A stretch of 64,000 bases of DNA, taken from positions 1,577,221-1,641,220 of the forward strand of contig AP024673.1 of assembly GCA_025998675.1 (NCBI GenBank), in the 5' to 3' direction. This document shows positions 5,693 through 60,367 of this stretch, piece after piece. The notes beneath the pieces are model-generated. The model saw nothing but the letters and a program-made list of their open reading frames with translations. It was not told the DNA's origin and ran no database searches. A program made the translations under genes and the position numbers. Within the stretch, counting starts at the first letter, position 1. Each line of letters starts with the position of its first letter. Origin of the DNA: Fimbriimonadales bacterium. Lineage in GTDB: Bacteria > Armatimonadota > Fimbriimonadia > Fimbriimonadales > GBS-DC.

Positions 5693-5867
5693 ATACCAAT
5701 CTGCTGGTCATAGTTCGCAAAACGGCGACTTATGGAGTGCGGAAGCGGAGCTTCCGCGCATGCTGAAGCTGCGCTTCAGCACTCCATAGTAGCGGGGTGC
5801 GGGCAACAAGCACGTCTCTGCGGGTGTGTGCGAGGGAATTTACGAACTCTGACTGCGCAGTTGGTAT
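5693..5867. repeat. MITE-like element, copy A (palindrome core)
   Basis: Its left end (ATACCAATCTGCTGGTCATA) is identical over 36 bp or so to that of the copy at 1481, and its right end reads TTTACGAACTCTGACTGC...TTGGTAT. The core differs completely: instead of the CTCTCCC hairpins it carries the GGAGTGCGG palindrome at 5733-5786. The right end lies 4 nt from the dnaX stop codon. Confidence 0.8.
5733..5786. repeat. GGAGTGCGG palindrome, copy 1
   Basis: A 54-bp composite palindrome, TGGAGTGCGGAAGC...GCTTCAGCACTCCA, made of two inner hairpins (GGAAGCGGAGCTTCC and GCTGAAGCTGCGCTTCAGC). Five copies occur in the window: here, 15882, 29532 (split by the IS), 54345 and 60258. Confidence 0.85.
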
Positions 5868-5871
5868 CACT

Positions 5872-15557: not shown

Positions 15558-16493
15558 GTGAGGTTGCTATCGACTCGCTACCTGAGCGTTTCGGGCGCGC
15601 GGGCAGGCGCGGTTCACCTCCCGCTGGCAGCGCTGGAACGGCGCACGCATGAGTTGCCGCCGCCCCATCACGAGGTGTGGGTGCTGGGGGACGCGCCCGA
15701 AGCCTATCACGCGCTGGGCTGGCTGCATGCGCGGGGCAGGCGCGCCCGACTCGCGCCCGCGCCCCCCGCCGACGCCGACCCGAACGCACGCTACCGACTC
15801 TGGGAACCGAACGAGTGGCTGCAGGAGGCGCTGAGCGCCCCTGCACTACATTTGCAACATGCGCGCGAAGCGCCGTCTGTATGGAGTGCGGAAGCGGAGC
15901 TTCCGCGTGCTGAAGCTCCCGCTTCAGCACTCCCAATTACCCGTCTGCGCGCACGCGCGGACAGAAGGGCTACCGCAGCGGAGTTTCAGCAACTGACAGA
16001 AGCGTCTCTGAAGCACTGGCGCGTCCTCGATCTGGGCTGCGGCAGCGGGCGCGAGGCGGTCTTTCTGGCGTCGCTGGGCGGGCAGGTGGTTGCGGTGGAT
16101 CGGCTGCCCGAAGCGCTGGCGCGCGGGCGCGACCTGCAGCGCCGCTACGCGCCCGACAGCCCGCCCATCGAGTGGGTGTGCGCCGACCTCGAACACGCCG
16201 ACTGGCAACCCGACGGCGGATTCGACGCTATCACGCTTTTCTACTTCCTCTCGCGTGCGCTCATCCCCCGCGCGTGTGCGTGGCTGAACCCGAACGGGAG
16301 CCTGCTTATCGAGGCGTTCACAACGACGCACCGCGCCCGATATGGCAAGCCCGCCGCCGACGCGCGCGTGGCGGCGTCAGGCGAGCTGCCCCGCCTGCTG
16401 CCGCCCGGGATGTGCGTCGTGGCGTATTCGGAAGGCTGGCGCGCGAATGGACGCCATACGGCGCGCCTGTGGGCAGTACGCATGGAAGGATGA
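15558..16493 (+). CDS. Rhodanese-like / SAM methyltransferase fusion, with palindrome-derived linker
   Basis: The first ~95 residues resemble a rhodanese-like domain (FLSVSGARAGAVHLPL-type start, WLHARG), without an obvious active Cys. The second half is a class I SAM-dependent methyltransferase: motif I VLDLGCGSGREAVFLASLGG from about residue 156, then VVAVDR, FDAITLFYFLSRAL and WLNPNGSLLIEAF. Between them lies residue ~98-146, encoded by an in-frame copy of the GGAGTGCGG palindrome with its outer arms (VWSAEAELPRAEAPASAL). No stop is introduced, so the linker is probably tolerated. GTG 15558 is 7 nt after a TACTCT -10. Substrate unknown. Confidence 0.8.
   Translation: MRLLSTRYLSVSGARAGAVHLPLAALERRTHELPPPHHEVWVLGDAPEAYHALGWLHARGRRARLAPAPPADADPNARYRLWEPNEWLQEALSAPALHLQHAREAPSVWSAEAELPRAEAPASALPITRLRARADRRATAAEFQQLTEASLKHWRVLDLGCGSGREAVFLASLGGQVVAVDRLPEALARGRDLQRRYAPDSPPIEWVCADLEHADWQPDGGFDAITLFYFLSRALIPRACAWLNPNGSLLIEAFTTTHRARYGKPAADARVAASGELPRLLPPGMCVVAYSEGWRANGRHTARLWAVRMEG
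15882..15934. repeat. GGAGTGCGG palindrome, copy 2 (inside a coding sequence)
   Basis: This 53-bp copy lies in frame inside the fusion gene and is translated. The outer arms, roughly 15850-15990, also match those of the intergenic copies at 60258 and 54345 (for example GCGCACGCGCGGACAG). Confidence 0.85.
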
Positions 16494-29467: not shown

Positions 29468-29531
29468 GCGCGCTCTTCCAGCATCATTATTTTAAGTATA
29501 TTCGCAACACGCGCGTCAATCGCTACCTGTA

Positions 29532-29582
29532 TGGAGTGCGGAAGCGGAGCTTCCGCGCATGCTGAAGCTCCCGCTTCAGCAC
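29532..29582. repeat. GGAGTGCGG palindrome, copy 3, at left foot of IS copy 2
   Basis: TGGAGTGCGGAAGC... to ...GCTTCAGCAC abuts the IS terminus. The rest of a palindrome continues beyond the other end at 31212-31238, with 19 bp (GAAGCTCCCGCTTCAGCAC) present on both sides. Confidence 0.8.
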
Positions 29583-31211
29583 TGATGTTTGTCATTTCTC
29601 CTCACCCGCTGCGCCCACCCCTTGACAGAAAAACGCTCCATCGGGTATCTCCTGCACACTATGAAAACACCAATCCACACACAGGAGCAACCCGATGGAG
29701 CTAACCCAATAACACACCCAGTATACCACCTCCAGCAACTCCTCCAACAACTCCCAACACGCACCCAACGCCCAGCACCTAACCAAACCCTCCGACAACT
29801 CCTCTACGCCGAACTCCTCGCACCCACCCACAAAACCATCGCCCAACTGGAACGCACCCACCAGCCCCACCGAACCCACCCACGCCCCGCCGCCTATCGC
29901 CTCTTCCAACGCTACTTCCAACCCGACGACGCTTTTCACACCCTGCGCCTGCACACCCTCCAACACTGCCCGCCCGAACAGCCCTACTGCGTCATCGCCG
30001 ACGGCACGACCGTCCCCCGAACAGGCAAGTCTATTCCCGGCGCCTTCTGGCGACAAAACCCTCAAAACGCCCCCTTCGCGCGCGGACTACGCTGGGCGCA
30101 GAGCTTTGTGATGCTCGGCGCGCTTGTGCCCCCCGACGACGGCAACGCCCGCTGCGTCCCGATTGAGTGGCTGCCTGCATTCTCCCAACGCTGCGCCCGT
30201 GCCCAAGAGGGTTCCCGTCGCTCGGAGATAGCGGGCTGGATAGAAGGCGTGCGACGGGTGCGTGCGACGCTGGATGCGGCAGGGCGCACGCAGCAGTTGT
30301 TGGTCTGCGTCGGCGACGGGCGGGGCGACACGAAAGCGTGGGGTACGCTGCTGTTGCCCAACACGGTCTGTTGTGCCCGTGCGCGGCGCGACTCGCTCTG
30401 GTGCGACCTGCCTGAGGCGCACACGGGTCGGGGGCGTCGGCGGGTGTATGGGGCGCGTTGGTGGCGTCCGTGCGAGGTGTGGCAGGGGCGCACAGGCTGG
30501 CAGATGGTTCAGATACACGCGCGGGGGCGCGCGATACGGGTTCCTGTGCGGGTGCTGGGTCCGTGTCGTCGCAAAGACTGGGGGGCGCCGGTGTTTTTCG
30601 TGATTCTTGTGCGGGGGCGTCGCAAGCGGCGCAAGCGAGAGAAGACCCGTGCGCCACAGGCGTTCTGGGTGCAAGCGGTTGGGGATGGTCAGGGGGGCTG
30701 GCAGTTGCCGTTGGCGTTGGAGCGGTTGGTGGGTCTGTTGTGGCAGCGTTGGGAGATAGAGGTGTGTTTTCGGAGCCTCAAGAGCGGGTTTGGGCTGGGG
30801 GAGAAGCCGTGCTGGGGGTTGGTGAGTGGGGAGCGGAGCGTGTCGTGGAGCGCGTGGGTGTATGGGGTGTTGGTGTTGAGCGGGTATCGGGCGTGGGGGT
30901 GGTTGCGGGCTGGGGGTGAGCGTCGTTGGACTTTGCGGGAGGTGTTGCGGGATGTTCGTTGGGGGGTGTTGTTGGAAAACTGGGCTTCAGGGGGCTGTGC
31001 GTGTGGTGCGGGTAAAGGGGCGAAAAATGGGTTGTGTGGGTGTTGGTGGTGTCGGGAGGGGCTATGGATCTGGTTGGGGGCGTTTCGTTGGTGAGGGATT
31101 GGGTGTGTTTGGGGGTGTTTTTGGGGTTTTGTGGGGCGTTTTGAGCGGACTTTTGGGTGGATTCTGGGGTCTGCGGCATATGTTCACGCCTGATGGAAAT
31201 GACAAACATCA
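29583..31211 (+). mobile_element. IS4-like insertion sequence, copy 2 (1629 bp)
   Basis: Same 15-bp perfect inverted termini and same length as copy 1, in opposite orientation. It has split or landed at a GGAGTGCGG palindrome between fabF and aroA. Differences from copy 1 are few, and several cluster in a short patch near 31003-31016. Two inverted copies 25 kb apart could invert the DNA between them by recombination. Confidence 0.93.
29661..31094 (+). CDS. IS4-superfamily DDE transposase, copy 2
   Basis: Intact 477-residue transposase (501 from an upstream TTG at 29589). It shares all DDE motifs with copy 1 and differs at a few residues: Ala for Glu in the N-terminal helix, and GCACGAGKG for GCGCCLGKG near the C-terminus. 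The start codon lies within the hairpin formed by CTCCATCGGGT...TCTCCTG and CAGGAGCAACCCGATGGAG, which may limit translation of read-through mRNA. Confidence 0.88.
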   Translation: MKTPIHTQEQPDGANPITHPVYHLQQLLQQLPTRTQRPAPNQTLRQLLYAELLAPTHKTIAQLERTHQPHRTHPRPAAYRLFQRYFQPDDAFHTLRLHTLQHCPPEQPYCVIADGTTVPRTGKSIPGAFWRQNPQNAPFARGLRWAQSFVMLGALVPPDDGNARCVPIEWLPAFSQRCARAQEGSRRSEIAGWIEGVRRVRATLDAAGRTQQLLVCVGDGRGDTKAWGTLLLPNTVCCARARRDSLWCDLPEAHTGRGRRRVYGARWWRPCEVWQGRTGWQMVQIHARGRAIRVPVRVLGPCRRKDWGAPVFFVILVRGRRKRRKREKTRAPQAFWVQAVGDGQGGWQLPLALERLVGLLWQRWEIEVCFRSLKSGFGLGEKPCWGLVSGERSVSWSAWVYGVLVLSGYRAWGWLRAGGERRWTLREVLRDVRWGVLLENWASGGCACGAGKGAKNGLCGCWWCREGLWIWLGAFRW

Positions 31212-31238
31212 GTGCGGAAGCTCCCGCTTCAGCACTCC
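31212..31238. repeat. GGAGTGCGG palindrome remainder at right foot of IS copy 2
   Basis: GTGCGGAAGCTCCCGCTTC then AGCACTCCA. Together with 29532-29582 it makes more than one full palindrome, so part of it has been duplicated. Confidence 0.75.
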
Positions 31239-31304
31239 AAAATGTGTTGCGTGCAGAACGCCCCCTGCCGATAATCGGTGGTTGAAAATATAACGCGAAG
31301 ACGC

Positions 31305-32621
31305 TTAGCGTTCCACCAGCGTCTCCAGCAGCGCCTCAAATTCGGGGAAACTGGTCTGCACGCAGGCGACATCGTGAATGAGCGTCTCGCCCGAGCGGGC
31401 AATCAGCCCCGCAATCGCAAGCGTCATCGCAATCCGATGGTCGCCATGACTGTGAACCTCCGCGCCGTGCAGGGGCGTCGGTCCCTGCACGCGCAGTCCG
31501 TCGGGCAGGGGTTCAACTTGCGCGCCCATTTTGCATAGCTCGGCGGCAATCGTCTCGATTCGGTCGGATTCCTTGACGCGCAGTTCAGCGGCGTCACGGA
31601 TTTCAGTGATTCCGTGCGCCTGTGTCGCCAGCAAGGTGAGGATGGGGACTTCGTCGATGAGGCTGGGTACGAGCGCGCCGCCGATTTGCATCGCGCCCAT
31701 CGGTTGGGGGCGCACATGCAAGGTCGCCGTCGGTTCGCCCGCCTGCTCGCTCACCGCGCTCCATTCCAGATGCACGCCCGCCTGCGCCAGCGCCTCCAGC
31801 ATGCCCGTGCGCGTCGGGTTCACGCCCACATGCTCAATCGTCAGCTCGGCGCCGGGCAGCAGCAGCGCGGCGGCAATCCAGAACGCCGCCGACGAAAAAT
31901 CGCCCGGCACGGTCAGCCGTTGCCCTTCCAGCGGCTGCTCCCCGCGCAGGCGCACGCGGTGCGCGCCCGACGCGCTCATCTGCTGCTCCAGGCTCGCGCC
32001 GAACGCCTGCAGCATGCGCTCGGTATGGTCGCGCGAGAGGCACGGCTCCGTGACCTCCGTGACGCCCGCCGCGTTCAAGCCTGCCAGCAGCAGGCACGAT
32101 TTGACCTGTGCGCTGGCAACAGGCGTCAGGTACGGTATCCCACGCAGTTCGCCCCCGCGAATCGCCAGCGGCAGGCGCGTCGCGTCCTCGCGCCCGTCGA
32201 TGTGCGCGCCCATGCGGCGCAGCGGCTCCACCACGCGCCGCATCGGACGCCGCCGCAGCGACTCGTCGCCCGTTAGCACGCTGAAGATGGGCTGCGACGC
32301 CAGCACGCCCGCCATCAGGCGCGCCGTCGTGCCCGAATTGCCCGCATCGAGCGTGTCGGACGGCTCCTGCAAGGGCTGTCCGCCGCGCCCGATGATTCGC
32401 CAGTGCGCCGCGCCCACGCGCTCCGCCTGCGCCCCCAGCTGCTGCGCCATCCGCAGCGTGCGCAGGCAGTCGTCCGACTCCAGAAAGCCCTCAATCTCCG
32501 TTGCGCCCCGCGCCAGCAGCCCCAGAATGACCGCGCGATGGGTGATGGACTTATCGCCCGGCGGACGCCAGACGCCCCGCACCCGCTTCGCAGGAGTAAT
32601 CCGCCAGCTCTGCACGCTCAC
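31305..32621 (-). CDS. aroA: 3-phosphoshikimate 1-carboxyvinyltransferase (EPSP synthase)
   Basis: AroA joins PEP to shikimate-3-phosphate in aromatic amino-acid synthesis. The 438-residue protein shows PPGDKSITHRAVILGLLA at the N-terminus, LDAGNSGTTARLMAG, SAQVKSCLLLAGL, and in the second half DEVPILTLLATQA, LRVKESDRIE and HGDHRIAMTLAIAG. Length is normal. The GTG at 32621 fits the family's N-terminus; there is no convincing ribosome site, and 80 bp separate it from the divergent aldehyde dehydrogenase. Confidence 0.95.
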   Translation of the reverse strand: MSVQSWRITPAKRVRGVWRPPGDKSITHRAVILGLLARGATEIEGFLESDDCLRTLRMAQQLGAQAERVGAAHWRIIGRGGQPLQEPSDTLDAGNSGTTARLMAGVLASQPIFSVLTGDESLRRRPMRRVVEPLRRMGAHIDGREDATRLPLAIRGGELRGIPYLTPVASAQVKSCLLLAGLNAAGVTEVTEPCLSRDHTERMLQAFGASLEQQMSASGAHRVRLRGEQPLEGQRLTVPGDFSSAAFWIAAALLLPGAELTIEHVGVNPTRTGMLEALAQAGVHLEWSAVSEQAGEPTATLHVRPQPMGAMQIGGALVPSLIDEVPILTLLATQAHGITEIRDAAELRVKESDRIETIAAELCKMGAQVEPLPDGLRVQGPTPLHGAEVHSHGDHRIAMTLAIAGLIARSGETLIHDVACVQTSFPEFEALLETLVER

Positions 32622-48375: not shown

Positions 48376-49026
48376 TCAGAACAACCGAAACGGCGTGAAG
48401 GCGAGATACACGCCAAACAAATCGCCGTCGCGCGTCTGACTATGGCGCGAGTAGTAGGTGTAGAGGTACATATAGTCGTTCAGGCTGCGTCCCGCGCCGA
48501 CGCTGGTGTAGGCGTCCCCGCTGGGGAAACGATAATACTCCAGCGCGAGGTCCAGCCCGAATGGGAGCGAGGTCTGGAACGCGCCGCTCCAGCCCGTGCG
48601 GTTGCCCTGCTGATACGCGCCCAGATGGAACCTGCCGAACGAGACGGTCTGCGTGCCCACCACATAGAAGGTGGGATTCGCGTTTTCGGTGATGCCCATC
48701 GCGCCGACCGCGACGCCCGGTGAACGCTTCGATTCGGGCGTCAGCACGAAACGCGCATTCGCCAGCGTCTGGCGGGGCTGGTTGTTGTCCAGTCCGACAA
48801 AATCGATGCCGAAGTCGAACCGCTCGGTGAGCATCAGCTGGGTGTAGAGGCAGCGCGTGCGCGTCTGGCTATAGTAGCGCGGTACGCCGTACTGTTCCGT
48901 TGCCAGATAGACCGAACGCGGCGAGCTGAGATTCGCGGTGGGCATAAAGACCACCGTTTCGGGGATTGCCAGCGCCCCCGACAGACAGAGCAGACTCAGT
49001 GAACACACAATTGTCCAGCGTTTCAT
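48376..49026 (-). CDS. Secreted beta-barrel-like protein of unknown function
   Basis: 216 residues with a signal peptide (RWTIVCSLSLLCLSGALAIP), then alternating hydrophobic-polar strands with many aromatic residues (FHLGAYQQGNRTGWSGAF, DLALEYYRFPSGDAYTSVG) ending FGVYLAFTPFRLF. A terminal Phe and aromatic girdles are typical of outer-membrane barrels, here probably 8-10 strands. ATG 49026 has an AGGTG site; the GTG at 49035 overlaps that site. No family recognised. Confidence 0.65.
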   Translation of the reverse strand: MKRWTIVCSLSLLCLSGALAIPETVVFMPTANLSSPRSVYLATEQYGVPRYYSQTRTRCLYTQLMLTERFDFGIDFVGLDNNQPRQTLANARFVLTPESKRSPGVAVGAMGITENANPTFYVVGTQTVSFGRFHLGAYQQGNRTGWSGAFQTSLPFGLDLALEYYRFPSGDAYTSVGAGRSLNDYMYLYTYYSRHSQTRDGDLFGVYLAFTPFRLF

Positions 49027-49112
49027 TGGTTTCACCTCGTGAAGGCTATTCCATATTGGCGCGTGCGTTTACCATCGTGTGGGGGGTGTATCAGGTACTC
49101 TTAGGGGTTGGC

Positions 49113-50039
49113 GTGCAGGGCGCGGTTGAGCATTATCTGGTAATGTTCCTGCTCCTGTTGCTGCTGGGCTACGGGCTGCGGCGCGGGGGCGTGTTGACGG
49201 AGGAGACGACGGCGTGGCTGGCGCGGCTGGTGTCGCTTGCGCCGTTGCCCGCGCTGGTGCTGAGCGCGCTGGCGAAGGCGTCCTTCTCGGCGACGCTGTT
49301 TGGTGTGTGGGGCGTCGCGATGCTCTCTGTGTGGCTGGGGATGGGACTGGCGTGGCTGATAGGGACGATGCTGCCGCTTGCCGCGCCGACGCGCGTGCTG
49401 CTCATGGTGCAGGGCAGTATCAGCAACACGGGGTTCCTGGGCACGCCGCTGATTGCCGCGCTGTATAATCACGAGCCGAACCTCGTCGCCGCCGCCGTCG
49501 CCTACGATATGGGCGTCACCAGTGTGATGATTCACCTGGTGGGCGCTCGGCTCCTCGCGCGTGCAGGCGCGTCGAACGGCGTCGCAGACGGGGCGAACGG
49601 ACTGCGACGGCTGGCGCAGATGCCTGTGTTCTGGGCGACCGCACTGGGCTACACGCTCATGCTCACAGGACTGCGCCTGCCCGATCCGCTGCTGTTCACG
49701 CTGGAACGGCTGGGGCAGACCACCACGCCGCTGGTGCTGCTGGCGATTGGCGGGATGCTACACGGGCGCACGCTGGGCGCACGCTGGAAAGCCGTCGCGC
49801 TGATTGTGGGCTTCAAAACGCTGGTCATGCCGCTGCTGATGCTGGGGTTGCTGCGCATGGCGGCGCTGCCCCCATTCGCAGCAAACGCCCTCTTGCTCCA
49901 GAGCGCGATGCCCACCGTGATGGCGAGCGCGGTCTACGCCGCCGCGTTCCGCACCGAGCCAGAGCTGGCGTCGGCGGTCGTCGTGGCGTCGACGGTCGTC
50001 GCGCTCGCGTTGCTGCCCGTGTGGATGGGCATGCGTTAA
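49113..50039 (+). CDS. Auxin efflux carrier (AEC) family permease
   Basis: About 308 residues and ten membrane segments arranged as two inverted halves, with the typical NTGFLGTPLIAAL and PFAANALLLQSAMPTVMASAVYAAAF segments of bacterial AEC transporters; substrates are unknown carboxylates. The frame is open from 48966, overlapping the divergent gene's signal peptide, but a TACTCT (49096-49101) lies 11 nt before GTG 49113, and the first helix begins just after it, so GTG is preferred. Neighbours give no hint on substrate. Confidence 0.82.
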   Translation: MQGAVEHYLVMFLLLLLLGYGLRRGGVLTEETTAWLARLVSLAPLPALVLSALAKASFSATLFGVWGVAMLSVWLGMGLAWLIGTMLPLAAPTRVLLMVQGSISNTGFLGTPLIAALYNHEPNLVAAAVAYDMGVTSVMIHLVGARLLARAGASNGVADGANGLRRLAQMPVFWATALGYTLMLTGLRLPDPLLFTLERLGQTTTPLVLLAIGGMLHGRTLGARWKAVALIVGFKTLVMPLLMLGLLRMAALPPFAANALLLQSAMPTVMASAVYAAAFRTEPELASAVVVASTVVALALLPVWMGMR

Positions 50040-50068
50040 AAAAAGCGTGGAGCCTTTGCAGGCTCCAC
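50038..50068 (-). terminator. Intrinsic terminator for minus-strand transcripts
   Basis: GTGGAGCC-TGCAAA-GGCTCCAC followed on the minus strand by GC and a run of U (A-run 50038-50044 on plus). The A-run overlaps the stop codon of the convergent AEC gene. Confidence 0.75.
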
Positions 50069-50124
50069 AGAGGGAGGTTGGGTTAACAAGGCTGTGCGGT
50101 CTGCTCTGCCACCTGTGCGGTGGC
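50038..50124 (-). ncRNA. Candidate small RNA (about 87 nt)
   Basis: A minus-strand TATAAT (50136-50131) would start an RNA at about 50124, whose first bases form GCCACC-GCACA-GGTGGC, and which ends at the intrinsic terminator. It has no ORF. Alternatively this is just the trailer of the cyclase mRNA. The TATAAT also reads on the plus strand (50133-50138). Confidence 0.3.
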
Positions 50125-50178
50125 ATGGCTATTATAATTCGGTTTTGGGAGAATTGGTGCTGTTAAATTTGCCAGATT

Positions 50179-54264: not shown

Positions 54265-54344
54265 CCTCGACGCCTCCAGAGTATTTGCTCAGTGCCGTTG
54301 CAGTAAATTTTCAACAGCGCCTCTATCCGCGCATGCGCATCTTT

Positions 54345-54400
54345 TGGAGTGCTGAAGCGGGAGCTTCAGCCTCATGCGGAAGCTCCGCTTCCGCACTCCA
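54345..54400. repeat. GGAGTGCGG palindrome, copy 4 (reversed)
   Basis: 56 bp, TGGAGTGCTGAAGCGGG...TTCCGCACTCCA, the reverse orientation of copies 1, 2 and 5. Outer arms (GCATGCGCGGATAG-type) match those copies. It lies between the antitoxin gene and direct repeat 2. Confidence 0.85.
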
Positions 54401-54451
54401 TACAAACAGCGCCTCGCGTGCATGCTGCAATCTTAGAGCAAAGGCATTTAA

Positions 54452-60165: not shown

Positions 60166-60257
60166 CCCTGCGGCGGGAGGCGAGAGGCGTCGGGCTCTCA
60201 GAGACTGTCTAAGTGTCTTTGCACGAGAATTGCGACACACGCGCAGCACCGTCTTTA

Positions 60258-60311
60258 TGGAGTGCGGAAGCGGAGCTTCCGCGAGGCTGAAGCTCCCGCT
60301 TCCGCACTCCA
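60258..60311. repeat. GGAGTGCGG palindrome, copy 5
   Basis: 54 bp. It sits inside a larger inverted structure: TAAGTGTCTTTGCA at 60208-60221 and TGCAAAGACACTTA at about 60354-60367 bracket it. The whole 160-bp unit looks like an element of its own, abutting MITE copy C. Confidence 0.85.
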
Positions 60312-60367
60312 AATTACGCGCACGCGCGGACAGGGGAGCCGCTGAAAATTCCCTGCAAAGACACTTA

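Follow-up and report, generated by a model that had tools for sequence, protein, structure and literature searches.

The window analysed here, a stretch of 64,000 nucleotides from a Fimbriimonadales bacterium, contains an open reading frame of 311 residues that carries a palindromic repeat in the middle of its coding sequence (Table 1). According to Pfam, the C-terminal domain of the predicted protein is a SAM-dependent methyltransferase, a fold that was also matched by Foldseek, and the small N-terminal domain has no Pfam match. The methyltransferase part of the rhodanese-like/methyltransferase label given in the initial annotation therefore stands, while rhodanese lacks a Pfam match and is absent among the fold matches listed. 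The same annotation had described a palindrome inserted in frame, with outer arms common to other copies. The reading frame is indeed uninterrupted across the 51-bp palindrome (translated as ...HLQHAREAPSVWSAEAELPRAEAPASALPITRLRARADRR...), and both a profile search and an alignment of this copy to the consensus of a repeat family, termed A below, recovered the arms. Since these arms are shared, the whole element spans 15832-~15996, slightly more than the 15850-15990 first proposed. Its left end reads TGAGCGCC, from TAAGTGCC, and the left arm is close to the consensus; the right end is degenerate, so that the target duplication is not readable there.

Table 1 Features of the methyltransferase locus and of related repeats in the window
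Feature	Position in window	Strand	Basis or remarks
ORF, 311 aa: N-terminal small domain, inserted linker, SAM-dependent methyltransferase domain (residues ~150-247)	15558..16493	+	
Family-A composite element (MITE-like, ~160 bp)	15832..~15996	+	nhmmer A-profile 2-151/160, 115 bits, at 15833-15992; consensus alignment
REPIN core, 51-bp palindrome	15883..15933	+	Fold z-score -6.9
REP y, GGAG-T-GCGGAAGC-GGA-GCTTCCGC	15883..15906	+	Sequence; lone hairpin, 5' foot unpaired
REP z (inverted), GGAG-T-GCTGAAGC-GGGA-GCTTCAGC	15909..15933	-	Sequence, fold
Family-B composite element, same REPIN core	5693..5868 (genome 1582913-1583088)	+	
Family-A composite element	54291..54450	-	
Family-A composite, intact terminal inverted repeats TAAGTGTCTTTGCA...TGCAAAGACACTTA	60210..60367	+	
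Family-A element broken inside REPIN by IS, left part	29497..29583	+	
Transposase-like ORF, 501 aa, of IS inserted in REPIN	29589..31094	+	Sub-threshold DDE_Tnp_1 match
IS-interrupted family-A element, right part	31213..31307	+	

The window holds six occurrences of the motif GGAGTGCGG, where 1.3 would be expected. Across the genome, a single contig of 2.99 Mb, the 21-mer GGAGTGCGGAAGCGGAGCTTC gave 155 matches at up to 3 mismatches, and its reversed control gave 0. If the palindrome were a chance feature of an ordinary lineage-specific protein segment, this would account for the open frame and for nothing beyond it; given these counts, and outer arms that match as well, such an origin can be rejected. 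In the genome stretches taken around the 21-mer matches we distinguished 140 copies of the core, and the outer arms of most of them fall into two families. Family A measures ~160 bp (TAAGTGYCTTTGC ... GCAAAGRCACTTA) and ends in 13-bp terminal inverted repeats, family B measures ~177 bp (ATACCAATCTGC ... GCGCAGTTGGTAT), and a core of 51-53 bp is common to both. MITEs of 104-225 bp with family-B ends and another core, or none, are also present in this genome and in G016, a genome of another genus (L284, L285, L286, L273).

Close inspection of the core reveals two inverted REPs, y and z, each of which can form a hairpin that leaves its foot unpaired, while the doublet can adopt either a clover or one long hairpin (fold z-score -6.5 for the consensus and -6.9 for the window copy). 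An inverted partner accompanies 119 of 140 REP matches, and 117 of these partners end 50-54 bp from the start. Identity between copies reaches 0.96 in the core and 0.72-0.83 in the arms; because the copies had been chosen by their match to the core, identity was also computed on the half of the core that was not used for selection, where it is 0.95. The foot, separated from the stem by a single base (T), reads GGAG and not GT[AG]G, the canonical REP tetranucleotide (PMC6006769), and for this reason we filed the element as a REPIN with an atypical foot and not as a GTAG REP.

A candidate enzyme is encoded in the same genome. The RAYT profile NF047646 (cut-off 80) scored 99.8 bits here and 100 bits in G008, a congener whose RAYT protein also matched TnpAREP in the PDB (4er8). 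These REPs border the RAYT gene on both sides in each species. In the genome studied here, where the gene occupies 1509374-1509634, A and B copies stand no more than ~250 bp from its two ends, and in G008 four tandem z REPs stand to its left and four tandem y REPs to its right. Judged by its sequence and surroundings, the palindrome core is a REPIN of a RAYT system, one with an atypical foot, and the RAYT would be the enzyme that moves it. Separately, a single-copy IS200-like Y1 transposase domain (L245, genome 1525060-1525395; also L244, L246 and L248) is followed, in L245, by a C-terminus resembling sigma-70 region 4, with similar C-terminal sequence in congeners, and the L245 protein looks like a domesticated transposase.

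The outer arms have features of a different kind of element. Family A has the terminal inverted repeats, the TA at both ends and the small size, too short to encode a transposase, of a TA-type MITE, and all 28 full-length copies are bounded by TA. The target conforms to YTAR in 21 of these 28, compared with 8.5% of the TA contexts in the fetched DNA. Among 50 cases of a gene running into an A element, with genes recognized by a simple codon score, the terminal TAA is in the frame of that gene in 38 (binomial p 8e-10). Family-A elements thus largely occupy stop codons, a siting that could stem from a preference for such targets, from selection, or from the two together. IS630-type enzymes target TA (PMC2170065). 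A search of this genome for an IS630-type transposase (DDE_3) gave no match, and a search for autonomous copies by their A and B ends returned only pairs of MITE length, apart from a single A element that an IS has split. We infer that the family-A arms were moved by a TA-targeting, IS630-like transposase that is now absent.

The split element holds an IS of ~1.6 kb (window 29584-31212; end CTGATGTTTGTCATTTC) with a DDE-like ORF, located inside the REPIN core. The same junction sequence, with the IS in the REPIN core, recurs at genome positions 48551-50177, 1112669-, 1872689-1874313 and ~2462139, and the IS is thus, by the recurrence of this junction, an apparent REP-targeting element.

Among the 13 genomes of the genus, the core is carried by this one and by G008 (~130 pattern matches), and eleven are without it; in G016 there are a few A and B composites. 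The core of G008 sits inside a third type of repeat (GCCCTCACCCCC ... GGGGGTGAGGGC) unrelated to A or B, and the same core is therefore found in different carriers. No copy of the REP core was found in IMG/VR contigs by an exact 24-mer search, nor any BLAST match among PLSDB plasmids. This distribution bears on whether the repeat is a mere TA-MITE, of the kind represented by Rickettsia palindromic elements (RPEs), ERIC or Correia, with a centre that is palindromic by chance and a RAYT that is irrelevant. The A and B composites do behave as units with terminal inverted repeats and TA ends, and they reach another genus in G016. Nevertheless, the core appears in the unrelated repeat of G008 and stands bare in the tilS gene of both species; its conservation greatly exceeds that of the arms, and it borders the RAYT gene in each of the two genomes. 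All of this makes a TA-MITE without a REPIN very unlikely.

Turning to the effect on the host gene, the insert segment is missing from 20 of 20 orthologues in the alignment, which lack ~45-50 residues exactly at the insert, as the initial annotation had predicted. The linker from EPNEWLQE to LDLGCG comprises 66 residues in the window ORF and 15-17 residues in the three orthologues that were measured (the count starting two residues farther upstream). The orthologue of G008, the closest relative, whose genome has the REPIN core elsewhere, likewise has a much shorter linker. Both domains are conserved with respect to the orthologues and retain their invariant residues. In line with the proposal that the repeat fell between two domains, AlphaFold assigned a pLDDT of at least 90 to 242 of the 311 residues, with values >90 in the N-terminal and methyltransferase domains, and <50 to residues 105-132 between these two well-folded parts; the insert is probably a disordered linker according to this model. 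In the orthologue from G013 (L072) a different translated repeat, SPLSASREGGEPSSPSPFTERGLGGEV, lies just upstream of the corresponding linker.

If instead the gene had been split or inactivated by the insertion, its open frame would be a matter of chance, and the cell would make the methyltransferase domain as a separate product or lack it. A palindromic mRNA could impede translation (the fold z-score of -6.9 refers to the DNA), but the 311-residue frame is intact and its two domains are conserved, with their invariant residues, and confidently predicted to fold, so that we regard inactivation as unlikely. The fused protein, of ~34 kDa, is presumably made and working.

The initial annotation had also called for a search of other genes and frames, and this revealed well-supported in-frame copies in five protein genes in all, in at least three frames and with one of the genes read antisense. 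Besides the window methyltransferase these are carB, tilS, a tamB-like gene and a membrane-protein gene, and they represent about 4% of 137 sizeable elements, nearly all the others being extragenic. Intragenic copies were called by open frame, Pfam and homology, since a codon-usage scan of the flanks alone was too noisy. The carB insert (residues ~529-576) lies between the two halves of the protein and is absent in relatives, G008 having a short, different segment in its place. In tilS a bare REPIN separates the ATP-binding from the substrate-binding domain, and the G008 gene carries one at the identical position and in the identical frame. The tamB-like gene contains two REPINs (a different insert occupies its G008 counterpart), and the membrane-protein copy lies at genome 587217-587344. 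One frame of the REPIN is used by the window gene, carB and the membrane protein (PSVWSAEAELP / SPVWSAEAQLP), which in family A is the frame where a YTA leucine codon is the target; the tilS copy is read in a second forward frame, and those of the tamB-like gene on the reverse strand. The translated inserts measure ~43-59 residues in most cases because either the carrier arms or two REPINs are translated. We initially considered the membrane-protein insert to be shared with G008, but the alignment shows a different repeat at that place. The long ORFs over copies 1522620, 1926468 and 2309748 were also rejected as probably antisense or spurious, as a Pfam domain is either lacking or confined to their far end, and their composition resembles that of reversed genes.

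Several of these linkers hold different repeats in G008 and other congeners. The inter-domain linker of carB is a repeat hotspot: here G010 (L170) has repeats and a RAYT-like ORF that continue in frame into the C-terminal half, G012 (L185) has a RAYT-like tail with DTYQSA repeats, and contigs of G001, G003 and G011 end. Elsewhere, the frame of a TetR-type regulator (G007:C166, L257) continues through TGVPPVQ...RDAQAT repeats to a RAYT-like domain. The inserted peptide could have been exapted, as a flexible spacer or in regulation, and the tilS REPIN kept in one place and frame in two species, as well as the linkers that repeatedly receive different repeats in other congeners, would fit such a role. 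We consider it distinctly improbable, since the peptide is predicted to be disordered, varies between genes and frames, and is missing from every orthologue of the window gene that was examined.

Taken together, the evidence makes it very probable that the palindrome is a REPIN of a REP/RAYT system which came to lie at the centre of the TA-MITEs A and B, moved with them, and reached the methyltransferase linker within one A copy. REPINs would have spread with the help of the RAYT and entered the TA-MITEs, and the resulting composites would then have been spread by the TA-targeting transposase now missing from the genome. One family-A composite would have landed at a TA in the interdomain linker, in a register compatible with continued reading, and the element would now be read as ~50 extra residues, probably disordered. 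Most insertions within genes would have been lost to selection, the survivors being those between genes, in stop codons (the TA of TAA/TAG) or in linkers with an open frame. A broader reading, which we put forward tentatively and think somewhat less likely than its negation, is that of a nested transposon, a Y1-transposase REPIN inside TA-MITEs, together with certain inter-domain linkers of conserved genes that serve as serial landing pads for various repeats in this genus. If true, the REPIN would gain a second means of spread together with a landing preference for stop codons, and in the linkers of carB, tilS, the methyltransferase and the membrane protein different repeats would have been turned into protein independently in different species. 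With eleven congeners lacking the core and two genomes of the genus carrying it, each insertion can be studied in its states before and after the event, and its cost is open to direct measurement.

REPINs are inverted REP doublets that fold as a hairpin or clover (Bertels and Rainey 2011, PMC3116915). The elements described here share this arrangement, their high copy number and mostly extragenic location, a core more conserved than its flanks, and REP clusters beside the RAYT gene; they differ in the GGAG foot, in forming the centre of TA-MITEs, in carriers that change with the species, in the translation of some copies and in their Armatimonadota host. Literature searches joining RAYTs and Armatimonadota gave matches that seem incidental, judged by titles and counts. 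Intragenic GTAG/CGTC REP dimers are likewise found in ORFs, as linkers in unrelated genes that include RNA enzymes; they are read as 20-30 residues, and REP ends supply stop codons (PMC3733652), whereas here the tag differs, most inserts are of ~43-59 residues and the TAA is supplied by the end of the MITE. TA-flanked MITEs such as ERIC and Correia (NEMIS) resemble the composites in their TA ends, terminal inverted repeats, size of ~100-200 bp and occasional in-frame fusions (PMC2229807), but here a REPIN occupies the middle, and a partner IS was sought and not found. IS elements that target REPs are also known (PMC1525189), and the IS within the palindrome at several REPIN sites is similar, except that its transposase is only weakly assignable (DDE-like). 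The parallel first drawn, with the RPEs of Rickettsia, holds at the level of function: according to the accounts of Ogata 2000 and 2002 given in PMC2229807 and PMC10969869, these too are palindromes of ~100-160 bp, in frame in conserved genes and read in several frames. Nearly half of the RPEs of R. conorii lie in ORFs (PMC10969869), compared with five genes among 137 elements here, and the RAYT association sets the present elements apart; they are better filed as atypical-foot REPIN/RAYT elements nested in TA-MITEs. In-frame MITE fusions have been reviewed (PMC2229807, PMC10969869), and the 2024 review considered it conceivable that other prokaryotes gain new protein segments by an RPE-like route (PMC10969869). 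Such a route appears, from the open frames, to operate in Armatimonadota, in several genes including carB and tilS, with insert-free orthologues as controls and a candidate transposase in the same genome. New here are the REPIN inside a MITE, the phylum (to the extent that our searches covered it) and a series of orthologues free of the insert that is unusually clean.
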